Below, piece by piece: positions 2,565 through 23,274 of a stretch of 64,000 nt of DNA (its first letter is position 1; each line of letters opens with the position of its first letter). The notes beneath the pieces were generated by a model, which saw only the letters and a program-made list of their open reading frames with translations, made no database searches and was not told the DNA's origin. This DNA comes from Azospirillaceae bacterium (lineage in GTDB: Bacteria; Pseudomonadota; Alphaproteobacteria; Azospirillales; Azospirillaceae): positions 124,001 through 188,000 of the forward strand of contig JAPWJW010000002.1 in assembly GCA_028283825.1 (NCBI GenBank). The letters run 5' to 3'. Both the position numbers and the translations under genes were made by a program.

Positions 2565-3392
2565 TCATGAAAACAGGGCCGCGACGGTCCGGGGCGAAAC
2601 CCTATGCCCGTAGGCGGCATAAAGCTGGTAACGGGGTGGCACGTGGATGTCCCGGATGTCGACCGGCACCTCCGGGAACCTGTCGGCGAATTCGCGAGCA
2701 ACGAAGAACGCGTTCGCCCCGGAATAACCGTTGCAGCAGACCAGGTCGTAATCAAAGGCGGAGAACAGGTCGACGAAGTTCTGGAGCGCCGCCCCGAAAT
2801 AATCGTCACCACCCCAACGGTGTTCCGGATCATAATCTATCTGGAATCGCGCCGGCGGCAGGAATTTCGCATTGTATTCAACAATGAACAGCTTCGGCCT
2901 TACACTGTCCGCCAACAGCGCCCCGACAAGGTGGATGTCGTTGCCGTCGAGATCCAGCGACACGAGGTCCACCGCATCCACCCCCAGGGCCGCCCTACCG
3001 GCCCGGGCATGGCCGGCCACGTTGTCCAGGGTGATCCAGTCCCGGATGTAAGACAAGCGGGGCAGGGGCGCCGGATCGAAAGCCAGGTCCTGGCCCCCCA
3101 CCCAGAAGCCGCGCCACCCCAGGCTTCCCAGAATGACGGTATTGTTTTCCAGCCCGTTGCCGACCCCGAATTCCGCGAACGTCCCGGCGGACAGGTCCAG
3201 CCGACGGATGATCTCAAGGGTGATGCCGTCCTCGTCGGACTGGGAGAAACACTTGCGGCCGAACCGGTTCAGGGGATTGGGATGAGCGGCCTGGAACCGC
3301 AGGTTCGCATCCTGGATGGCGACATCCCTCAACGAACTGGCGCACGCCTGCAAGGACGCCGCCATCCGCCGGATCTCCGCCAACTCATCCAT
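2565..3392 (-). CDS. Conserved protein of polysaccharide clusters, FkbM/methyltransferase-like
   Basis: A 275-residue cytosolic protein with no signal peptide. Residues 48-60 (KCFSQSDEDGIT) and 73-85 (FAEFGVGNGLENN) resemble the start of a Rossmann methyltransferase fold in FkbM-like proteins: an E-x-G-x-G-x-G type glycine loop and then an acidic segment (DLVSLDLDGND). I cannot assign a substrate. It lies 39 bp downstream of another methyltransferase-like gene on the same strand and converges with the oxidoreductase. In surface glycan clusters such enzymes usually methylate sugars or glycan ends. Function is inferred from fold and context only. Confidence 0.55.
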   Translation of the reverse strand: MDELAEIRRMAASLQACASSLRDVAIQDANLRFQAAHPNPLNRFGRKCFSQSDEDGITLEIIRRLDLSAGTFAEFGVGNGLENNTVILGSLGWRGFWVGGQDLAFDPAPLPRLSYIRDWITLDNVAGHARAGRAALGVDAVDLVSLDLDGNDIHLVGALLADSVRPKLFIVEYNAKFLPPARFQIDYDPEHRWGGDDYFGAALQNFVDLFSAFDYDLVCCNGYSGANAFFVAREFADRFPEVPVDIRDIHVPPRYQLYAAYGHRVSPRTVAALFS

Positions 3393-3431: not shown

Positions 3432-4577
3432 TCAGATGAAAGACGGCCGGAGCCTGACCTTGACCACCACGATCGTCAGCGTCCCGAATTCCTTTTCAAA
3501 ACAATCGCGGATAGGCAGGTATTCGACAAGATAACGCGGATCTTCGGCAAGGCGCCCGACCAGGCTGTTGCAGCCTAAGCCATCCAGTGCGGCGACCTTG
3601 TCGAGATAACAATCGTCGAAAATGACGACCGTCCTTTCCGACATCAGCGGGGCGACGTTGTTCCAATCGGACTCGATCGTCTCTTCGCTATGGCCGCCAT
3701 CGATGAAGACGAAGTCCACGGGCGAAACGGCGCCATCCCATGCCGCACCGAACGCCTTCAGGCTGTCCTGGGTGTAGCCCTGGACCAGGAGGTGATTGTC
3801 ATTGAAGGCCGACAGCGCAGCGCCGACCTCAAGGCGCGACAGCGGGTATTTGGAGAACTCCTTCTTGTGGACTTCCGCCGTCATCTCCTCGAACAGATCG
3901 AAACCGATGTAGCGAAGCGCGCGGGTGCCGGCCGGCGTGCGGCCGCCGGCATGGATCATGTCGGCCCCGTTCCTGCCGTCGAACACGCCGATCTCCAGGA
4001 TCGATCGCGGTCGACGCGCCAGCAGGCACTGCAGCAGCTGGCCGTACCGTCGCGGCCGCCGGTCCCGCACCGTCCGCAACACGTGCTCGATCGCCTCAAG
4101 GGCGTCCCCATCTTCATCGGCGGGTGTCAGGAGTGTCTCGGGAACCAACTGGCGGAACGCCACGGCATCGCGTTCTTCCGGGAAAAGCCGAACCTGCCGC
4201 TTTGCCGCCAAACCGAGCAATTCCAAATCGCCCGCGCGCGCGGCCGTCTCCATCAGCAGCCGGCCGTATTCAGGGGCGTCGATAGCGCGCGCCAGGGCGG
4301 CAACCGCGAATTCCGTGGCCGACGCGTAATCCGCGACGGCCAACCGGCACCTGGCCTTGCCACCCCATGCCACCGCCCCGTCCGGATCGGCGACGATGCA
4401 TGCGTCGTAGCACCTTTCCGCCTCAGCCGGATTGCCCTCATGCAGATGCAGGACAGCCCGAGCCAGCAAGGAAGCCGGATTGGTCAGGTCCGTTCCGCCA
4501 ACCGCCGCCGGCGTGTTGTCGGCGGATAGCGGCCCAGCAGTGTCATGTGAGGTCAAGGTATCGATACCTATAAAGAA
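3432..4577 (-). CDS. TPR-like domain plus class I SAM-dependent methyltransferase (TylF/cephalosporin-hydroxylase-like)
   Basis: The N-terminal part has tetratricopeptide-like helices (for example LHEGNPAEAERCYDACI, an A-x-x-x-Y-x-x-A pattern). The C-terminal half has the SAM-binding motif SILEIGVFDGRNGADM and a VDFVFIDGGHSEETIESDW segment, typical of Methyltransf_24/TylF-like enzymes that methylate sugars. The open frame extends to an ATG at 4646, but residues before about 24 are not protein-like. A TTG at 4577 preceded by AGG is the start I prefer, with low certainty. The upstream DNA is AT-richer and carries three palindromes. Likely role: methylation of the surface glycan made by this cluster. 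Confidence 0.6.
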   Translation of the reverse strand, partial: FFIGIDTLTSHDTAGPLSADNTPAAVGGTDLTNPASLLARAVLHLHEGNPAEAERCYDACIVADPDGAVAWGGKARCRLAVADYASATEFAVAALARAIDAPEYGRLLMETAARAGDLELLGLAAKRQVRLFPEERDAVAFRQLVPETLLTPADEDGDALEAIEHVLRTVRDRRPRRYGQLLQCLLARRPRSILEIGVFDGRNGADMIHAGGRTPAGTRALRYIGFDLFEEMTAEVHKKEFSKYPLSRLEVGAALSAFNDNHLLVQGYTQDSLKAFGAAWDGAVSPVDFVFIDGGHSEETIESDWNNVAPLMSERTVVIFDDCYLDKVAALDGLGCNSLVGRLAEDPRYLVEYLPIRDCFEKEFGTLTIVVVKVRLRPSFI

Positions 4578-4972
4578 TAAGGGAATATTCGGCGTCAGAG
4601 ACCGTACCATCGAAATTGGCTGTAACCGGCATCGGCTGTCAATCATAAGGCGCTTGCGGCGTTGGAAGATAAACTCTCATGCGAGCCGGCCGACCGCGCC
4701 CGTCCCGCCCCTACCTCTCCCGCGATTCGGGGCGCCGTCGCCTTGACAGCGTCGGGGCCGGAATGTCACTGTGACATCAGTTGTGTTGACGTCGACGACG
4801 TCATGGGGGCGCTGCAGTGGCAGCTAAAGAATTGGGTTATCCTAAGATTAAATGGCCGTTTCCTGTAGCAGAATTTAATAGATTTACTGACATCTATCCG
4901 CCATGTGGCCCACGCCAATCATAATTACAATTATGATTTGGTTTCGCCGCCACTTTAGCGTCAAGGTTTGTA
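4578..4972. promoter_or_regulatory. Divergent intergenic control region with three perfect palindromes
   Basis: This AT-richer stretch separates the leftward methyltransferase genes from the rightward glycosyltransferase block. It contains ATGTCAC-T-GTGACAT (4763-4777), TGACGTC-GAC-GACGTCA (4787-4803), and AATCATAATT-AC-AATTATGATT (4917-4938), each with perfect arms. The last lies about 35 bp before the ATG at 4973. These are plausible binding sites for dimeric regulators controlling both directions; none matches a site I can name with confidence. No convincing gene was seen here. Confidence 0.55.
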
Positions 4973-5896
4973 ATGATTCGACGTTTTATTAAGAAAATCG
5001 CAAAGCTGGCATTCATGCCGATCTGGCGGCGGGTCGCATACCGGATGGACGTGCGCCTTATACCGCTGCACGGGCGCCTGGACAGGGTCGAGGTGTCGTT
5101 GCACGAGCGCCTGGACAGGGCGGAAGTGTCATTGCTTGAGCGCCTGGACGACGTCGAGGCGCCATTGTACGGGCGCTTGGACCAGATTGAGGGATCGTTC
5201 CGTGAACGGCTGGACAGGGTCGACATCTCATTGCTTGAACGCCTGAACCAGGTCGACGCTCTGGTGGGGCACGTGGCCAACCTGGAAGTGTCCGTGCGCA
5301 ATCACGTGGAGGCGCGCCTCGCCATCTTGGAGGCGCATGTCGCCGACCGGAATGCATCCAGCGAGACACGACTGCATCAGATCGAAACACGACTGCACCA
5401 CATTGAGGCGCAGTTGCACCGCGTTTCCACGACGGCCAATGACCTGCAGGCGCAATGGCGTGTCTATGTGCCCAGCTTCGTCGGCGCCATCGCGGCAGTG
5501 AAGCGTACGGGCACCGACATCGGCGCCCTGTCGTCTCGCCTGGACGCTGTGTCGGCATCCCTGCCCGCCGAGCGGAATTTGACCGCCGAAGTGGTGGAGG
5601 CCGGCACCTTCGCCTCCACGGTGGAGATGGCGACGCTGGAGGAGCGCGTCTCCATGCTTGAGGGGCGCTTGAGCACCCACGCCGAGAACCTGACCAGTGA
5701 ATTGAGCGCCGGCGCCCAAGAACTCAACACCACCCTGTCCGCCCGCATCCGGTCCGTGGTCGATCAGACCGACGCGCTGGAGGATCAACTGATGAACGTG
5801 CGGCACTCATTGTCGAATGACATGACCGACCTTTGGCAATTCGTCCGTGCCCAAACGGCACACGGCATCGCGAGCAAGGCGGAGCCGGTGGACTAA
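4973..5896 (+). CDS. Coiled-coil protein with six 11-residue (hendecad) repeats
   Basis: A 307-residue protein with a basic amphipathic N-terminus (MIRRFIKKIAKLAFMPIWRR) that could bind a membrane. Residues 33-98 are six tandem 11-residue repeats on the pattern x-E-R-L-D-R-V-E-x-S-L (DNA 5069-5266, six units of 33 bp). The spacing changes to heptads around residues 131-151 (ETRLHQI, ETRLHHI, EAQLHRV). The rest is also predicted helical. No catalytic motif is visible. It begins the rightward block and precedes the multi-domain glycosyltransferases, so a scaffold or length-ruler role in glycan assembly is possible but unproven. Confidence 0.75.
   Translation: MIRRFIKKIAKLAFMPIWRRVAYRMDVRLIPLHGRLDRVEVSLHERLDRAEVSLLERLDDVEAPLYGRLDQIEGSFRERLDRVDISLLERLNQVDALVGHVANLEVSVRNHVEARLAILEAHVADRNASSETRLHQIETRLHHIEAQLHRVSTTANDLQAQWRVYVPSFVGAIAAVKRTGTDIGALSSRLDAVSASLPAERNLTAEVVEAGTFASTVEMATLEERVSMLEGRLSTHAENLTSELSAGAQELNTTLSARIRSVVDQTDALEDQLMNVRHSLSNDMTDLWQFVRAQTAHGIASKAEPVD
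5069..5266 (+). repeat. Six in-frame 33-bp tandem repeats
   Basis: Consecutive 33-bp units encode HGRLDRVEVSL, HERLDRAEVSL, LERLDDVEAPL, YGRLDQIEGSF, RERLDRVDISL and LERLNQVDALV. The unit length equals exactly three turns of an 11-residue helix repeat, and the DNA is well conserved among units, so recent tandem expansion is likely and unit number may vary between strains. Confidence 0.9.
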
Positions 5897-6114: not shown

Positions 6115-8529
6115 ATGGCCAAAATGCTTAGATATCTGAGCGCGTCGGAGTTGCTAGCATTTGGCAAGGCGCTGAATAACCAGCGATATCTGAACCACTT
6201 GTATGAACAGATCTTTCTGCGGCCAGCCGAAGAAAACGCCAGCGCGGACCTGCTGCGCCAGTTGGAAGAGGGAGAGGTCAGCCGCCTGTCGGCCATCGCC
6301 ATTCTCGCGGACAGCCCGGAAGGGGCCGCGACCACCCGCGTCTTCTATCACTGGCGGGATCTGCTGCATCCCGACGCGCATTTCCTGCCGGACCTTTATA
6401 CTTTCCTGCTGAGCCGCGACATCGACGAAACCGGCTGCGCCTATTTCCAGGACCAGGTGGCGAGCGGCGCGATGACCCGGGCCGGCGTCATCCTGAGCAT
6501 CGCCCAGGGCGAGGAATGCCGGTCGCGCGGACCGTTACGGGTGGCCGTCAGCGACCTTGACCAGGACAACACCCGCCCCCTGGTCAACATCATCCTTGCC
6601 GACCGGGGCTGGATCCTGGAACGGCTGGCGTCCGAAATCGAACAACGCCTGCCCTATGTCACCATCGGCACGGCCCCCGGATCGGCGCCCATTCAATATT
6701 TCCTGCCCTATTCCGCCCGACAGGAGACCGCACCCGGCGTCAATGTGGCGCTGTTCACCCATGTGGAGCAGGACCCGGTGATGCGGGAACGGTTCATCCG
6801 CACCTGCGGAGAGGTCGACCTGGCCATCTACATGTCGGACTTCTATCGTTCGTTGGTGCAGACACACGCCCGGCGCGGCGCGCGCATCACCCCCGGCGTC
6901 GACCCCGATGAATTCCCGCTGGCCCCCCTGCGCATCGGCGTGGCCGGGCGCACCTACGGCAGCGGCCGCAAAGGCGAAGCCCTGGTGGCCCAGCTGATGG
7001 ATCTGCCCGGTGTGGAATGGCACTTCTCCGGCGAGGGATGGCCGGGGCCTTGCGTCATGTATGCGGACCATGACCGCCACCGCTTCTTCCATGCCATCGA
7101 TTATCTGCTGGTGCCGTCGTCTTATGAAGGCGGCCCCATGACGGCACTGGAGGCGCTGTCCTGCGGCACGCCGCTGATCGCCCCGGAGGTCGGGTTCGTC
7201 AGCGAGCTGCCGCACCTGAGTTATCCCACCGGCGACGCCAAGGCCGTGCGGCGCATCCTAGCCCGGCTGGTGGAAGAACGGGTCAACCGTCGGCAGATGG
7301 CGCAGCGGTACAGCTGGGACGCGTGGGCCCACCAGCACGACAGCCAATTCCAATATCTGCTGAAGGGCGCCAGGACCGGCCGCACGAAACCGGCTGATCC
7401 CTTGCGGGCGGCGCTTGTGCTGCACAAGCCGGAAGGCCAGGGCCGCATTGGCGGCCCGTCGCGCCGCGCGGCGGAGACGGCCGCCGCCCTGGTTCGGGCA
7501 GGCCATGCCGCCATCCTGCATCGTGGGGATCTGCCCAGCCCCGCGGTCGCCGACGTGGCGCACATATTCAACGTCTGGGAGCCGAACAGCGCGCTGCAAC
7601 TCCTGCAGAGCGCACGGCGCCGGCACCTGCCGACGGTCTTTTCCTCAATTTTCATCGACTTGGCCGTCGATGAGGTTCAGACGGCGGTACCGGACGCCTT
7701 TGACGCCGCCCGCACCTTCGGTGAGGTGGAGCAGGCGCTGGCCGCGCTGGGGGAACGGCATCGTGACGCCGTGGTGGATCGCCGCCGAACCCTTGCCCGG
7801 GTGGTTCCCGGTTATGCCGACCTGGTGCAGCGCATGCTGGCCCTCACGGACCATCTGGTCCTGACCAGCGGGTTCGAGTTGAACCTGCTGCGGGATTACC
7901 GCCTTGACCTGCCTGTGCATTCCATCGTCTGCAACGCCCCCAGCCACCAGCTGCTGAATGTGCCTGCGGCCGGCCATGTTCCGGCGATCATCCGGGAAGG
8001 CGGCTATATCCTGTGCATCGGCAATCTGGAACCTCGCAAGAATCAACTGTTGCTGCTGCAAGCCTGTCGCGACCTCAACCAGCCGCTGGTGCTCGTGGGT
8101 GGTGACGACAACAGCCCCTATGGCAAACTGCTGCGGCGCTTCGCGACGCCGTGGACGCACATAACCGGCCATATCAAGGATGACGGCCTGCTTCGCGCGA
8201 TGATGGAAAACGCCGCCGTGCTGGCACTGCCCAGCTGGGCGGAAGGGGCGCCCCTTTCCGCCCTGGATGCGGGCGCGTTCGGCGTGCCGCTGGTGCTCAG
8301 CAGCCAGTCCTCGGAACGCGAGTATTTTGGCGATTACGCCCATTACTGCGACCCTTGGAGCGTCGAGTCCATATATGACGCCCTTCGCCTTGCGCTGGGT
8401 GGCGACACGCCGGAACGGCGGCGGCAGCGTGCCGCCTTTGTGCAGGACCGCTTCAACTATGGCCGGGTCGCCGATCAACTGATCGACGTCTACACGCACG
8501 CCGTCAGCAAAAGAGAGACATTGCGATGA
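6115..8529 (+). CDS. DUF4214 domains fused to two GT4-type glycosyltransferase modules
   Basis: The open frame reaches back to 5833, but that part overlaps the previous gene and is not protein-like; ATG 6115 (MAKMLRYLSASELLAFG) or 6124 fits, giving about 804 residues. Residues 5-75 and 95-140 look like two DUF4214 repeats. A first GT-B C-terminal domain follows (residues about 150-420; VPSSYEGGPMTALEALSCG holds the E-x7-E motif). A second GT4-like half follows at 440-800 (ILCIGNLEPRKNQ, then SWAEGAPLSALDAGAFG). No signal peptide, so it is probably cytosolic with membrane contact. It overlaps the acyltransferase start by 4 bp (ATGA). Double GT4 proteins usually add two different linkages. Donor and acceptor are unknown. 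Confidence 0.75.
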   Translation: MAKMLRYLSASELLAFGKALNNQRYLNHLYEQIFLRPAEENASADLLRQLEEGEVSRLSAIAILADSPEGAATTRVFYHWRDLLHPDAHFLPDLYTFLLSRDIDETGCAYFQDQVASGAMTRAGVILSIAQGEECRSRGPLRVAVSDLDQDNTRPLVNIILADRGWILERLASEIEQRLPYVTIGTAPGSAPIQYFLPYSARQETAPGVNVALFTHVEQDPVMRERFIRTCGEVDLAIYMSDFYRSLVQTHARRGARITPGVDPDEFPLAPLRIGVAGRTYGSGRKGEALVAQLMDLPGVEWHFSGEGWPGPCVMYADHDRHRFFHAIDYLLVPSSYEGGPMTALEALSCGTPLIAPEVGFVSELPHLSYPTGDAKAVRRILARLVEERVNRRQMAQRYSWDAWAHQHDSQFQYLLKGARTGRTKPADPLRAALVLHKPEGQGRIGGPSRRAAETAAALVRAGHAAILHRGDLPSPAVADVAHIFNVWEPNSALQLLQSARRRHLPTVFSSIFIDLAVDEVQTAVPDAFDAARTFGEVEQALAALGERHRDAVVDRRRTLARVVPGYADLVQRMLALTDHLVLTSGFELNLLRDYRLDLPVHSIVCNAPSHQLLNVPAAGHVPAIIREGGYILCIGNLEPRKNQLLLLQACRDLNQPLVLVGGDDNSPYGKLLRRFATPWTHITGHIKDDGLLRAMMENAAVLALPSWAEGAPLSALDAGAFGVPLVLSSQSSEREYFGDYAHYCDPWSVESIYDALRLALGGDTPERRRQRAAFVQDRFNYGRVADQLIDVYTHAVSKRETLR

Positions 8530-14874: not shown

Positions 14875-15825
14875 ATGCTGAAGCAACCGCGTCGGTTCAG
14901 CGGGATGGCGGTGCGTGACTTGGCCATGGAGGCGATATTGTTCATCGACAGGTTCCGGGAATTCGTCAGGTCGCTGACCGCCAAGCCCGTCGAGACCAAG
15001 GTCGTGGAGGTAAAAACCCCCCGCCTCGCCCCCTTCCGCTTCCACATCCACACCGGCGGCGACAAGTACATCTCCACCGAGCTGGAGAAGGACGGCATCT
15101 GGGAAGCCTTCGAAACCGAGGTTTACTGCCGGCTTTGCCGGGAAGATGAGTTCATCCTGGACATAGGCGCCAACATCGGTTGGTACACCGGCGTCGGCGC
15201 CCGCGTGACCGGCAGCCGCGGCTGCGTGTACGCGTTTGAACCGGATCCGACGAATTACGCCATCCTTCGCAAGAACGTGGGCCTGATTCCATCGGCGGCC
15301 GAGGTTCGCACCTTCAACATCGCCATCGGCGACGGGCGGCAGAAAGGCACCCTGTTCCTGTCGCCCATCAATCGCGGCGACCACAACCTATTCGCCCATC
15401 ACGAAAACCGCGATTCCATATCCATCGACATCCGGACGCTGGATGAGCTGCTTCTCGGGCGCAAGCGTTTGCCGACGCTGCTGAAGTCCGACACCCAGGG
15501 ATCGGAGGCCCGCGTCCTGCGGGGCGCTGGCAAGTTGCTGGGCCAGGGCTGGCGGCCCGACATGATCCTGGAATTCTGGCCGTACGGCCTGCACGGCACC
15601 GGCGATGACGCCGGCGCCCTCTGGCGGCAGCTGGATGCGCTGGGGTATGCCACGTACAAGCTGCTGGAGACGGAACCGCGCCTGACGCGGCTGAGGCAGG
15701 ACGACGTGGCGTCCTGGCTTGAGCGGCGCATCCCGGTGGAAAGCCGCGGGTTCATCAACCTGCTTTGCCTGCACCCCTCGGGCGGGCGCCGTGAGCGGCT
15801 GGCCGACCTGATCGACGACGAATAG
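14875..15825 (+). CDS. FkbM-family SAM-dependent methyltransferase
   Basis: A 316-residue protein. Residues about 87-130 (FILDIGANIGWYTGVGA, then YAFEPDPTNYAILRKN) are the SAM-binding loop and acidic strand of FkbM methyltransferases, and LLKSDTQGSEARVLRGA is the family's second conserved block. FkbM enzymes O-methylate sugars and are common in exopolysaccharide and O-antigen clusters, sometimes as chain-capping enzymes. It lies 27 bp after the radical SAM gene. Its last 438 bp are overlapped antisense by the reading-through tail of the gmd-like gene. Confidence 0.85.
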   Translation: MLKQPRRFSGMAVRDLAMEAILFIDRFREFVRSLTAKPVETKVVEVKTPRLAPFRFHIHTGGDKYISTELEKDGIWEAFETEVYCRLCREDEFILDIGANIGWYTGVGARVTGSRGCVYAFEPDPTNYAILRKNVGLIPSAAEVRTFNIAIGDGRQKGTLFLSPINRGDHNLFAHHENRDSISIDIRTLDELLLGRKRLPTLLKSDTQGSEARVLRGAGKLLGQGWRPDMILEFWPYGLHGTGDDAGALWRQLDALGYATYKLLETEPRLTRLRQDDVASWLERRIPVESRGFINLLCLHPSGGRRERLADLIDDE

Positions 15826-18681: not shown

Positions 18682-21600
18682 TCAGGACCCGGACGGACTG
18701 TCCGCCAGCCACTCCATCCGGATCTCCGATACCGTGCACACGGTCTCTTCCACGACGAAAAAGCGGATCTCGAAATCGGCGATGGGCTCATCGACTGTGA
18801 CAAGGCCGCCGATTTCCATGGGATCGGCAAGCGGCAGCAGGTCGCCGACGTCATATCGAACCAAGGTGCGGCTACCCGCCTTGCCGCTGATGTCCAGGAA
18901 CTCCTCGCCGGTCATGTGCCCGGCATGTCCCCTGACCGTCAATCGATAGGTTCCTGGCCGCAACGGCAGATAGGGACCGAAAAAAAGGAAACCCCGCGTA
19001 TTCGTCGTCACAATGTCGCGCCCGTGACGTGAACCGCAGCTGGTGTTCAACCGCCGGTCGCTTCCCCAAAACACGTGGTCATCCCGGGACCGCATCGACC
19101 AGTCGACGGACCGGCTGCGATCCCGGATGGCGTCCCACAACTGACGCGCGCTTTCCTGCCAGGTTTGGTGACTGAGGTCGTCAGCGCGAACATGCCGGCC
19201 TTGGCCATATGCCTCCAGCCAACGGCGCACCGCCGCCGCGATGGTCGCCGGGTCGGGATCATCGGGGAAATAACTGGCGTGGCCGCCGGCCACTTCCCGG
19301 AAGACCGCAAGGTCCCGCGCCAGGATGGGCAACCGATGGTGGGCCGCTTCGATCAGGGGCAAGCCGAAACCCTCGCCCTCACTGGCAGCGATCAGGCAGG
19401 CCGACGCCTCATAGACTTGTTCCAAATATTCGTCGCTGATCTTTTCCAGAAAGAACAACCGGGAATTAGCCAAGGGATGGTGACGCAGCCTGTTCACCAC
19501 ATCTTCATTCATCCATCCCTGCTTGCCCACGATCACCAGATTGGCCTCGAGCCCCTTCCGCCACAGTTGCTCGAAAGCCGCCAATGTCTGGGCATGCCCC
19601 TTGCGGGGCTCAAGGGTGCCGACCATCAGAAACGACGGATGGGCCCGCAGTTGTTCCAGGACCGCCTGGGCTTGCGCGGGCAGGCCTTGCGACGGCCACG
19701 ACCGGGCGATATCCGCCCCGTTATGGTACCAGCCCACGGCGACCGGACGGCTGCGTTCGGGATTGACGGTTTCAAGCCAATTCAGAATATCCGCCGCCAC
19801 CGTCTTCGAAACACCGATCAGGGCGTCGAACTGCGCGACGGTCGTCAGCCAATTCAGGAACGCGCCATAGGTTTCCGGCGGAAAACGATGCGGCAGCAGC
19901 AGCGGCAACACGTCATGGACGACGAAAGCGACCCTGACGCCGCGGTTTCGCCAGTCGTGCAAGGTCGGCGCCTGGGCCGGAATGACGACCGGTTGCAGGT
20001 CCACCGCCACGAACACGTCGCCATCCCATGCTTCGACGGCGTCATCCTCCATCCACGCGCCGGAAATATCGAGAGAAGCGGCGGTGTACCGGCGCGCATA
20101 ACGAAAGCCCGGCTTGTCGGCTGTGGCATAGACAGGCTCCACCACGTAACCGGCCGGCGGGTCACGCAACCATTCGCTCAAGACCGCCCGGGCGACCCGC
20201 TGGATACCGGCGCCGGCGTCATGGCGCACCAGTTCCGAGACATCGACCAGCAATTGCCGGGGGCGGGGCGTGGGGGGATGATTCCGGTTGAACGCGCGCG
20301 CCGCGTCCGCCAACTCGTCCCCCGTCAGGCGCAGGCCCGACAGTTTCCCCGGCACTCCATGGCCACCACGATGCAGCCGCGCATAGATTTGCTCCACAAC
20401 GTGCGCATATTGCTTGGCGCAGTGCCGCGGATGGTACCGATCCCGGACAAACCGCATCGCGGCCGATCCCAAGGCTACGCGGCCCGCCGCGTCGACGGAC
20501 AGGGCGGTCAGTACCTCGGCCAGTTGGGCCGGCCCGACATCCGCCGGCAGCATGCGGACGGCCCCATCGTCCAGTTCCGCCACGCCGCCGATGGCGTTCA
20601 CCACCGTTGCCAGACCGAAGCCCAGGCAGTCCAGGATCGCGTCAATGCCGTCGCCGGACGCGGTTTCCTGCAATTGCACGGCGACATCCGCAGCCGCCAA
20701 CCACGTTCTATAGTCATCCGACGTGATGTGGCCGCAGACCAGAACACGCGGCCCACGGGGATCCCGCCGCAGCCGCCGCCGGAGGTGCGCCGACCTTTCC
20801 GGTGCCAATGGCCCCGCGAACACGAGATAGGCGTTATCGGCCTTTGAGATCGGCGATTCCAACCAGGCGTCCAGCAGCAGGGGACTGAGCGTCGTGCCGC
20901 CCGGCACATCAAAGGCACAGACGATCAGCGCATCGGGATCCATCCCAAGCGCGTCGCGCGCCGAATTCCGGCGGGGCGGTTTTTCCGGCGCGTGAGGGGG
21001 TGCCACCACCGCCCAATCCCGGCTTGTGCCCTCACCGTACCAATCATCCGCCAGGCCAAGGGTATGGTGGTCGGACGCGATGATGCCCAATGCGTCCTGC
21101 AGCACGGGAAGGTTCGCGGGATAGGACGGGACGGCTTGGTCGCGTTCAGCCACGGCCTTGTAACCATGCGCCCGCATCAGCGCCCGGGTGCGGCAATGGG
21201 GACGCCGGCCCTGGCGCTCACTATATTCCTGGGCCCCGGCAAGGGAAAAGTCACGCAGGACGACGACGCCCGGAATGTCCCGCAGCAGATCGAATAACGG
21301 GTCGCAGGCGTCGACGTTCGCGAAGTTGTAGACGACCCGGTCATAAGAAGGCGCCGACCGCCAGAACTGATCGATCGAGACCAGGCCGCAGTGTGCGCGG
21401 TCCAGGCGGTCACCCACCATTTCCGGCGCCTTGACGACGACGTCGACCTCATACCAGCGGGCCAGTTCCGGAACCAGGTCGGCGACCGGGCCTGGAACGC
21501 CGTCCTGATGGACGGGCTGGGGCACGACATAAGCCAAGCGGGGGCGCCCGCCCCGATCCTGCGGCATCGACAGCGGGGGACGGCCTTGGTGGAATTGCGC

Positions 21601-22191
21601 CAAGCCCGACCAGGCGTATCGGGCCACGCGGTCCCACGCGGCCTCGTCCATGGCCTGACCATCGTCAAAACCGGCCCATTCCGGCAGGGTGATCACCCGC
21701 TCGGGCTCGAAACCCAAGCGGTCGACCGCCTGTGCACCCGCCTGTGGCGACGGCGTCAGAATGAGGTCGGCGCATCGCGCATCATCCAGGCGGTCATGCC
21801 AGCCCGGGGATGAGGCCGGGCCCAGCAGCAGGTGCACCGTCGGCAGGCCGTAAAATTGATTGCGGCCGATGATGGCATCATCCGCATCCAGCAACAGCGG
21901 CTGCAACACCCAATCCGGTTCCAGCGCCGCCATATAGGCTTCACGCAGCAACGGTGCCGCCGGATGGCCGGGGGTCGGCGCGCTCCAAACCTTGACGCAC
22001 TGTGGCGGCAAGGCCGGGAATCGGGCCCGGATCGCATCGACGGTTTCCACCGCGCTACCGTTCAGGGCGATGATGACCTCATGCGCCGCCTGCTGGCGAA
22101 CCAATGCCGAGGCAAAAGCCAATACGGAAAGGCTGGCATCGCACTGGAGGCCCCGCCCTTGGCAGACCTGCAAATCAATAACGACCCGCAC
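18682..22191 (-). CDS. Very large multi-module GT4-type glycosyltransferase with C-terminal beta-domain
   Basis: A 1169-residue protein from a GTG start, 6 bp after the stop of the coiled-coil gene. It can be divided into an incomplete N-terminal transferase-like part (1-205), a GT4-like module (about 210-620; AYVVPQPVHQDGVPGPVADL at its start), a full GT4 module (about 650-1040; VGTLEPRKGHAQTLAAFEQL and SEGEGFGLPLIEAAHH), and a final domain of roughly 120 residues that looks like a beta-sandwich (FLFFGPYLPLRPGTYRLTV). The last could bind glycan. The layout recalls WbdA-type polymerases of mannan O-antigens, which work with a coiled-coil partner. Catalytic residues are clear only in the last GT module. 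Confidence 0.75.
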   Translation of the reverse strand: MRVVIDLQVCQGRGLQCDASLSVLAFASALVRQQAAHEVIIALNGSAVETVDAIRARFPALPPQCVKVWSAPTPGHPAAPLLREAYMAALEPDWVLQPLLLDADDAIIGRNQFYGLPTVHLLLGPASSPGWHDRLDDARCADLILTPSPQAGAQAVDRLGFEPERVITLPEWAGFDDGQAMDEAAWDRVARYAWSGLAQFHQGRPPLSMPQDRGGRPRLAYVVPQPVHQDGVPGPVADLVPELARWYEVDVVVKAPEMVGDRLDRAHCGLVSIDQFWRSAPSYDRVVYNFANVDACDPLFDLLRDIPGVVVLRDFSLAGAQEYSERQGRRPHCRTRALMRAHGYKAVAERDQAVPSYPANLPVLQDALGIIASDHHTLGLADDWYGEGTSRDWAVVAPPHAPEKPPRRNSARDALGMDPDALIVCAFDVPGGTTLSPLLLDAWLESPISKADNAYLVFAGPLAPERSAHLRRRLRRDPRGPRVLVCGHITSDDYRTWLAAADVAVQLQETASGDGIDAILDCLGFGLATVVNAIGGVAELDDGAVRMLPADVGPAQLAEVLTALSVDAAGRVALGSAAMRFVRDRYHPRHCAKQYAHVVEQIYARLHRGGHGVPGKLSGLRLTGDELADAARAFNRNHPPTPRPRQLLVDVSELVRHDAGAGIQRVARAVLSEWLRDPPAGYVVEPVYATADKPGFRYARRYTAASLDISGAWMEDDAVEAWDGDVFVAVDLQPVVIPAQAPTLHDWRNRGVRVAFVVHDVLPLLLPHRFPPETYGAFLNWLTTVAQFDALIGVSKTVAADILNWLETVNPERSRPVAVGWYHNGADIARSWPSQGLPAQAQAVLEQLRAHPSFLMVGTLEPRKGHAQTLAAFEQLWRKGLEANLVIVGKQGWMNEDVVNRLRHHPLANSRLFFLEKISDEYLEQVYEASACLIAASEGEGFGLPLIEAAHHRLPILARDLAVFREVAGGHASYFPDDPDPATIAAAVRRWLEAYGQGRHVRADDLSHQTWQESARQLWDAIRDRSRSVDWSMRSRDDHVFWGSDRRLNTSCGSRHGRDIVTTNTRGFLFFGPYLPLRPGTYRLTVRGHAGHMTGEEFLDISGKAGSRTLVRYDVGDLLPLADPMEIGGLVTVDEPIADFEIRFFVVEETVCTVSEIRMEWLADSPSGS

Positions 22192-22197
22192 CCTGGC

Positions 22198-23124
22198 TCA
22201 CTCCCGTCCGCGAATGGTTAGCCTGCGGCGACGCTTCACCAGCCGTTGGGCACCCTCTGGCAAACGGGTCATATCGACAACGATGTCCGGCGCCACCGGC
22301 GCCTCCAAACGCTTAACTTTATTTTCCAATCTATGTTCAAGCGTATCCAGGTTTTCCCGCAAGCGCAGGGCGATCATCTCCGTTTTTTTCTCAATGTTTT
22401 CCTGAAAACCATCAATACTATTCTCTATTTTTTCCGTTCCATTTGCGACATCGCCCTCAAGGTCCAGAATTCTACCCTCAAGACTTTGCATTTTATCCAA
22501 GACTTTGCCCTCAAGGGCGGCCATCGTCCCTATAATTTTTCCATTTAGATCTTCTGAAAATTTCTTAATGCCCGTTATCTCTCTGTCAATTTTTTGATTC
22601 ATGGCATCAATTTTGGCGGACAGCGTCAGTACGCTCAGTGATATCTCTTCAATTGATTGCTGCAATACCATGACGCTGGGATAGATTTTCTCATATACTT
22701 CCTGTGCCGTACCGCCAACCTTATGGTTTATACTTAATATGTTCCCAGCCAAACCCGTCATGGTTTGATGTATATGAGAAACGTCCGTATTCAGTTCTAC
22801 GGTGGACTCATATTGCATCCATTCGAGCTGATGGATTTCGCGCTCTAGTCGCCGGCCGCGCCGGAGCCAGCCCCAAGCACCCCGCTCCCGCTTCGCTTGC
22901 GACAGCATGTCTTCCAATGTGGGATCGAATTCTTTCGCCCCTGACGGCGATTGATCTTTTTCCGCCTGCAGGATCTCCAGCAGGACCTGACGCTTTCCCT
23001 GGCCATCCCGCAATAGCCCCAGGCCCTTGTCCATCTCCTGCGCCCTGGGCTGCCGCCCGAGGACCTTCTCGTAAATCGCCTGGATGAATTCAGCCCCGTA
23101 GGACTTCAGGATATCGTTGATCAT
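22198..23124 (-). CDS. DUF4214 domain plus long coiled coil
   Basis: Start chosen at ATG 23124, preceded by GGAGGAGGAG at suitable distance; the frame extends to 23223 without protein-like sequence. Residues about 8-55 (FIQAIYEKVLGRQPRAQEMDKG) match DUF4214. Residues about 90-270 form a long helical coiled coil with repeated hydrophobic spacing, rich in I/L/M and E/K. The C-terminus is basic (LVKRRRRLTIRGRE). Its stop is 6 bp before the GTG of the 1169-residue glycosyltransferase, so the pair is probably co-translated. A structural partner or molecular ruler for that enzyme is a reasonable hypothesis. Codon use is AT-richer than in its neighbours. Confidence 0.7.
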   Translation of the reverse strand: MINDILKSYGAEFIQAIYEKVLGRQPRAQEMDKGLGLLRDGQGKRQVLLEILQAEKDQSPSGAKEFDPTLEDMLSQAKRERGAWGWLRRGRRLEREIHQLEWMQYESTVELNTDVSHIHQTMTGLAGNILSINHKVGGTAQEVYEKIYPSVMVLQQSIEEISLSVLTLSAKIDAMNQKIDREITGIKKFSEDLNGKIIGTMAALEGKVLDKMQSLEGRILDLEGDVANGTEKIENSIDGFQENIEKKTEMIALRLRENLDTLEHRLENKVKRLEAPVAPDIVVDMTRLPEGAQRLVKRRRRLTIRGRE

Positions 23125-23274
23125 CTGCGAAGCGGCTCCTCCTCCACCCAGGCATATACCATTCGCCACGCGCCCGACAGGGGTGTTCCCGGCCATAGCC
23201 GGGGGGCCAGAAGGGGTAGGCATCGCCCAGCATCACACGGAGGATATTTCCGGACACTGTTGCCTTCAGTCCCG

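Follow-up and report, generated by a model that had tools for sequence, protein, structure and literature searches.

The window considered here is a stretch of 64,000 nucleotides (C2:124001-188000) of the 7.16-Mb genome of a member of the Azospirillaceae, and the subject of this analysis is a pair of adjacent minus-strand genes within it: a coil gene (CC2), which encodes a DUF4214 domain followed by a predicted coiled coil, and, directly downstream, a gene for a giant glycosyltransferase (GT) of 1169 residues in which Pfam recognizes GT4-type regions. The parts of the pair, with the evidence for each in brackets (ORF, open reading frame), are the following.

22198-23124, minus strand: CC2 gene, 308 residues, with DUF4214, coil and basic C-terminal helix (ORF, Pfam, AlphaFold model)
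22951-23121, minus strand: DUF4214 domain, CC2 residues 2-58 (Pfam match; helices at 2-58 in the model)
22303-22923, minus strand: helical or coil region, CC2 residues 68-274, with low model confidence at 68-135 (periodicity, model)
22204-22257, minus strand: basic C-terminal helix, CC2 residues 290-307 (model; comparison with Nitrospirillum amazonense)
22192-22197, minus strand: 6-bp gap between the CC2 stop and the GT start (ORF coordinates)
18682-22191, minus strand: giant GT, 1169 residues, GTG start (ORF, Pfam, model)
21637-22191, minus strand: GT1 remnant, N-terminal half only, GT residues 1-185, C-terminal half missing (alignment)
20272-21594, minus strand: GT2, GT4/GT-B fold, GT residues 200-640, 63 of 101 conserved positions (alignment, structure comparison)
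19120-20271, minus strand: GT3, conserved GT4 module, GT residues 641-1024, 90 of 98 conserved positions (Pfam, alignment)
18721-19077, minus strand: C-terminal all-beta domain, GT residues 1039-1157 (model, profile)

Within the CC2 ORF (22198-23223, minus strand), the ATG at 23124 was adopted as the start, giving a protein of 308 residues that begins MINDILKSYG. The sole family above its cut-off in the Pfam scan is DUF4214 (PF13946; 24.7 bits, cut-off 23.2), which scores 35.2 bits in the orthologue from N. amazonense, where the pair is also present; neither a kinase nor a methyltransferase was matched. An earlier sequence-only reading of the window was therefore right that a DUF4214 coil gene encoding neither enzyme ends 6 bp before the large GT gene. 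The 3.5-residue hydrophobic periodicity of CC2 is 10.1, a value reached by none of 100 shuffles (95th percentile, 7.2), and the AlphaFold model (mean pLDDT 79) predicts short helices at residues 2-58, a helix of low confidence at 68-135 (block means of 56-69), a long and confident helix at 140-274 (10-residue block means above 90 at residues 171-270) and a C-terminal helix at 290-307; weighing against the coil call is the composition-only coil score, which reaches just the 95th percentile among 732 other genes. The coil is the part that differs most between the two species (27% identity, against 41% for DUF4214, 43% for the linker and 52% for the tail, residues 281-308), and the lengths of 308 residues in the window and 287 in N. 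amazonense are two values, from which length conservation cannot be shown. The gene occurs in two of seven same-genus genomes searched, its own genome counted; CC2 alone, as a query, found zero relatives in the named genomes, and a two-row coil profile gave six weak matches beyond its own genome (E 2.4e-5 to 9.7e-4) in a sample of 385 genomes of the class. A sequence search of the PDB with the coil profile gave 17 rows at E values up to 1, with WbdD named in none of them, and Foldseek found no match to the CC2 model at E <= 0.001. For the DUF4214 part of the model, phycobilisome linkers made up seven of the eight top Foldseek rows (E 1.1-2.8), a likeness that would fit a protein-linking role and is too weak to be claimed as more than a lead.

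The giant GT, whose model (mean pLDDT 88) ends in the all-beta domain, was compared with its homologues in an alignment that took in 42 of 81 giant GTs (those of the window and N. amazonense and 40 others). The window protein keeps 12 of 12 conserved positions in the N-terminal half of GT1, 6 of 46 in its C-terminal half (37 are gaps), 63 of 101 in GT2 and 90 of 98 in GT3, and the values for N. amazonense are 12/12, 5/46, 62/101 and 88/98, respectively. Because this first count was defined on the very sequences compared, the conserved positions were recounted with each sequence omitted in turn; the least conserved GT2 of the other 40 GTs, that of L132, then kept 80/93, and, therefore, the degeneration of GT2 is confined to Nitrospirillum in the aligned set. 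About 38 of the 101 GT2 positions conserved elsewhere are changed in both Nitrospirillum proteins, and some of the lost positions are presumably, as in GT4 enzymes, donor-binding or catalytic. GT3 looks to be the sole intact transferase module of the protein, with two other giant GTs, L111 and L116, retaining less of GT3 than the window GT does. Thus, the earlier description of a WbdA-like multi-GT enzyme holds as far as GT-B-like regions are present, and it needs correcting in that GT1 lacks its C-terminal half and many conserved positions are lost from GT2. A PDB sequence search with the GT profile returned two PimA chains and Tll1590.

Homologous loci come from a scan of named genomes in which an alignment of ten giant GTs served as the query; of at least 559 related stretches, the best 80 were kept. 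The upstream gene was counted in 66 loci, with six contig-edge cases, four fusions and four unclear gene calls (L121, L133, L134, L138) left out and with L086 and L099 included, although the upstream gene listed for them is no coil partner; distances run to the start of the tblastn match, which is not a proven start codon. The upstream gene overlaps this start by 1-4 nt in 46 of the 66 loci and by 17 nt in one, and the gap is 0-20 bp in 10, 21-110 bp in three and more than 110 bp in six. A Pfam scan of 67 upstream proteins (window included) found a methyltransferase in 44, commonly followed by a coil; the heads are of the Methyltransf_23/11 type in 25, FkbM in 19 and DUF4214 in eight, one protein having both FkbM and DUF4214. 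The median coil score of 65 upstream proteins is 14.1, compared with 3.7 for the 732 other genes, whose 95th percentile is exceeded by 69% of them, and internal repeats scoring more than 1.5 times the best of 12 shuffles were found in 39 of the 65, a count that heptad self-similarity inflates. FkbM, coil and GT are fused into a single ORF in four of the 80 loci (L075, L118, L123, L136), and genes for Wzm, Wzt with Wzt_C, FkbM-coil and giant GT stand in a row in a genome of the window's own family (G103) and, by a look at the sequence, in the same order in G100. The pairing of a coil partner with a giant GT is general across the homologous loci, and the CC2/giant GT pair conforms to it, with a homologous GT and a partner gene within about 20 bp. 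This family architecture is the known terminator/polymerase design (WbdD/WbdA) of Klebsiella pneumoniae and Escherichia coli; the WbdD/WbdA comparison drawn in the sequence-only reading thus suits the family, in which methyltransferase-coil proteins are common at this position and sometimes fused to the GT, whereas the split ruler that it proposed for the CC2/GT pair is not supported. One locus of G100 (L050, 3823-11471, minus strand) carries a tandem of two giant GT genes whose 1258-residue products share their first 70 residues.

DUF4214 is found in the partner, the gene immediately preceding the giant GT, in the window, N. amazonense (L059), L060, L063, L064, L067, L071 and L122. The L063 partner (Sphingobium) is a single chain of FkbM, coil and two DUF4214 domains, that of L067 (another Sphingobium) is a DUF4214 protein without the FkbM head and 31% identical to the L063 part over 207 residues, in those of L064 and L071 a different N-terminus is followed by a coil and then by DUF4214, and those of L060 and L067 have little coil; therefore, head, coil and DUF4214 vary independently. 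The internal repeat of the L060, L063 and L067 partners is about one DUF4214 unit. Two differences set the window apart: its coil follows DUF4214, whereas the coil precedes DUF4214 in L063, L064, L071 and L122, and its GT is degenerate, whereas the GT modules are conserved in five of the six loci from L060 to L122 named above, the sixth, L122, lying outside the alignment. The L071 partner (L071:6030-10001) is 1323 residues long; its residues 328-1061 resemble a coil, and it contains internal repeats of 90 residues. In L122 (6980-9996), a separate gene of 577 residues, which begins like the head of the L071 partner, ends 2 bp before the coil-DUF4214 gene; this is possibly a naturally split partner, in a metagenome-assembled genome (MAG) in which a frameshift is possible.

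The unexpected association of DUF4214 partners with the C-terminal domain of the GT is the most interesting lead of this work. By profile, a domain like that at window GT residues 1039-1157 is present on 7 of 81 giant GTs, those of L060, L063 and L071 among them, and a DUF4214 partner accompanies all five domain-bearing GTs with a visible partner, as against 3 of the remaining 70, a group that also takes in loci lacking a clear partner (Fisher p = 3e-6). In a search of the retrieved loci with our own profile, Wzt_C, the cap-binding domain, turned up in 40 of 80, none of which belongs to the seven loci with DUF4214 (p = 0.012); by Pfam record, which covered 50 of the 80 loci, it is present in 32 of the 50, that is, in 0 of 6 DUF4214 loci versus 32 of 44 others (p = 0.001). 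It should be noted that the Fisher values ignore kinship and that the DUF4214 loci include three sphingomonads and two Nitrospirillum. KpsM-like genes occur in L060, L063, L064, L071 and L122, and KpsE-like genes, below the NCBIfam cut-offs, in all three loci scanned (L060, L063, L122).

In the genome of the window, Wzt_C (PF14524) has no match in 7.16 Mb, with a control search matching in 2 of 14 genomes, and a Wzm/Wzt-like pair without Wzt_C lies on another contig (C5). Among seven ABC2_membrane matches in the genome, five were read by eye (L011, L012/L014, L016, L017), and L016 alone resembles a polysaccharide exporter. No exporter was seen among the cluster genes examined, nor was a capsule-type (KpsE/KpsM-like) exporter, KpsM not having been searched as a family; in Nitrospirillum, KpsE gave nothing better than sub-cut-off matches, including a single one in this genome, on another contig (19.9 bits, cut-off 437.5). 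PF13440 flippases are about 470 kb distant or on another contig, and contigs C1 and C4 carry Wzz-type matches.

The surroundings of the pair contain genes for a GDP-mannose 4,6-dehydratase and a second protein of the same family, a radical SAM protein, an acyltransferase, several multi-domain GTs and methyltransferases, of which two bear out the stand-alone enzymes of the sequence-only reading: the FkbM protein listed below and a TPR plus Methyltransf_24 protein at 3432-4646 (Pfam). A second coil-GT pair is also present.

14875-15825, plus strand: stand-alone FkbM methyltransferase (Pfam)
4973-5896, plus strand: CC1, second coil protein, 307 residues, with internal repeats (repeats, periodicity)
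6124-8529, plus strand: neighbor of CC1 with DUF4214 domains and two GT4 regions, inferred start codon (Pfam, ORF)

In this second pair, DUF4214 is located on the GT, in two stretches, and not on the CC1 coil, and the three DUF4214 matches of the genome all fall within the two pairs. N. amazonense BR 11880 has a syntenic cluster with both coil-GT pairs, and internal repeats are found in both CC1 proteins. The window CC1 has repeats of period 33 and 22 (residues 24-73 and beyond), and shares 92% identity with N. amazonense over residues 156-180. Proteins of 275 and 272 residues, alike by eye, are encoded in both species (window 2565-3392, minus strand; L010:13066-13884, minus strand); that of the window has no Pfam match, and its stretch FAEFGVGNG looks methyltransferase-like by eye.

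With a probability of roughly 0.55, CC2 is a coiled-coil adaptor for a reduced GT with one intact site. The pair would be a reduced offshoot, present in two Nitrospirillum genomes, of a widespread assembly unit consisting of a terminator-coil partner and a multi-domain GT4 enzyme. CC2 would be an oligomeric adaptor, with DUF4214 at one end, a long coil, and the basic helix at the other end, which would keep the giant GT and its intact-looking GT3 within a polysaccharide-assembly complex at the membrane; structural or binding roles would fall to the degenerate GT parts, and the coil would measure no chains. A scaffold is more likely than a chain-length ruler because the enzyme for capping and the majority of the sites for joining sugars have apparently been lost. 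These odds rest on the degeneration of GT2, which survived the leave-one-out control. Also in favor of the adaptor are the recurrence of the pair in N. amazonense, the close gene spacing and the fusions in the homologous loci, the variable heads of the partners, the well-conserved GT3, the dN/dS values of 0.16-0.31 in all four GT parts, the lack of a Wzt_C match in the genome, the DUF4214 partners with little coil and the association of DUF4214 with the C-terminal domain of the GT. If export were to proceed via the Wzm/Wzt-like pair of the genome, which has no cap-binding domain, chain length would result from the balance of transporter and synthase; in K. pneumoniae O2a, where the transporter has no cap-binding module, chain length reportedly follows the transporter:synthase stoichiometry (PMC11231755).

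Several observations weigh against the adaptor. The loss of activity in GT1 and GT2, which is presumed from sequence, has to be reconciled with a GT2 that retains its GT-B fold, and the C-terminal half of GT1 is mostly missing in 13 of the 42 aligned GTs, 11 of them outside Nitrospirillum, so that this common loss is by itself no argument against a working polymerase. The dN/dS values between the two species, which indicate purifying selection on all four GT parts and so count for the adaptor (about 0.20 for the GT1 remnant, 0.31 for GT2, 0.16 for GT3 and 0.31 for the C-terminal domain), are only rough because dS is high or saturated. The coils vary in length by internal duplication, as in N. 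amazonense CC2 with its duplication of 58 residues (self-alignment score of 254, against at most 36 in 50 shuffles), which would fit a tunable spacer. A profile of 56 other partner tails scores CC2 at 0.4 bits, a value that 256 of the 1869 shuffles reported also reach, and N. amazonense CC2 at 0.9 bits, compared with 22.1 bits for L060. Finally, the C-terminal-domain profile also matches other ORFs in L065, L068, L069, L074, L091 and L106 (weakly in L069, E near 1e-3), where the giant GTs themselves do not have the domain; thus, its link to DUF4214 is not exclusive.

The tail profile exceeds 16 bits in 4 of 1728 "null" ORFs, of which at least two (L138, L134) are real FkbM-type upstream genes. 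An LSPxARxIY-like docking tail, considered as a feature common to the partners, gained no support for the Nitrospirillum pair, the profile matching L060 and neither the window nor N. amazonense protein; a tail regular expression that does match the window was drawn after its tail had been seen, is hence circular for the window and was not used as evidence (it fits 38 of the 71 upstream rows and 10 of the 732 other genes).

The alternative that survives best, unlikely as it appears, is that the GT is a full polymerase with divergent modules, in which GT2 would have changed its specificity rather than died and the coil would recruit the GT as WbdD recruits WbdA, with no ruler involved. The structure comparison of the GT model, which mainly covers GT2, fits this, with Z about 30 to several GT4 enzymes, as do the purifying selection on GT2 (dN/dS 0.31) and the frequency in the family of two-module GTs without the GT1 C-terminal half; what it must accommodate is the change, in both Nitrospirillum GTs, of more than a third of the GT2 positions conserved elsewhere.

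The chances are slimmer still for the split ruler, in which the coil would space the GT from a separate capping methyltransferase bound to the DUF4214 end, so that coil length would set chain length. The position of CC2 is equivalent to that of the methyltransferase-coil partners, methyltransferases are present in the cluster, coil duplications do change length, the coil is the most divergent part of CC2, and L122, unless a MAG frameshift is involved, has a head gene separate from the coil-DUF4214 gene. Nevertheless, the missing GT1 C-terminal half, a degeneration of GT2 that is unique among the 42 aligned proteins and the absence of a Wzt_C match from the genome all speak against such a device, and the window FkbM is encoded on the opposite strand about 6 kb away. 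The idea that this FkbM is the methyltransferase of the partner set free was dropped, as BLAST aligned it significantly with none of the methyltransferases in the eight fused FkbM-coil partners compared. That the pair is a functionless, decaying relic, as the loss of GT modules and its presence in two of seven same-genus genomes might suggest, is very improbable given that both ORFs are intact in two species at high dS and that dN/dS of the GT is well below 1.

For several ABC-exported glycans, it is accepted that chain length is defined by a pair of terminator-coil protein and polymerase. In WbdD-WbdA of E. coli O9a and K. pneumoniae O3, a terminator with a coiled-coil ruler is combined with a multi-GT polymerase (PMC3482155, PMC11231755); the window likewise has a coiled-coil protein paired with a multi-domain GT, but its coil carries DUF4214 at the far end instead of a kinase or methyltransferase, its GT has one intact-looking module, and its genome has no Wzt_C match. 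For E. coli O101/O162, a methyltransferase with a C-terminal coiled coil has been proposed as a possible ruler, in a locus with Wzm/Wzt (PMC13168486); there, too, a coil protein is encoded in an O-antigen locus, whereas the window coil has DUF4214 and no methyltransferase, and no exporter was found in the cluster genes examined. Nearer relatives are the pairs of Acidithiobacillus (L062), Yersinia frederiksenii (L088) and Sporotomaculum (L106), which have a coil partner upstream of a homologous giant GT (best-segment identity 46, 35 and 41%, respectively) and differ from the window in the methyltransferase head of the partner and in a GT2 that is conserved in the 40 GTs compared.

Tentatively, and with more doubt than attaches to the adaptor itself, DUF4214 may be a docking adaptor for giant GT4 enzymes that probably acts via their C-terminal beta-domain and replaces the terminator head of the coil partners in clusters without cap-recognizing exporters; in Nitrospirillum, this would have gone along with the reduction of the polymerase to an enzyme with one active site and pseudo-GT domains, and with a ruler-shaped coil that no longer measures. 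Among the open-access PMC papers searched, none combines DUF4214, glycosyltransferase and polysaccharide, or FkbM, coiled-coil, O-antigen and glycosyltransferase. A natural variant that has kept a coil and a GT, without the terminator and with much of the polymerase lost, would show which parts of this design are separable, and it suggests a role for DUF4214. Together, the fusions and the length-variable coils may provide material for asking what the job of the coil is when there is no cap to place.

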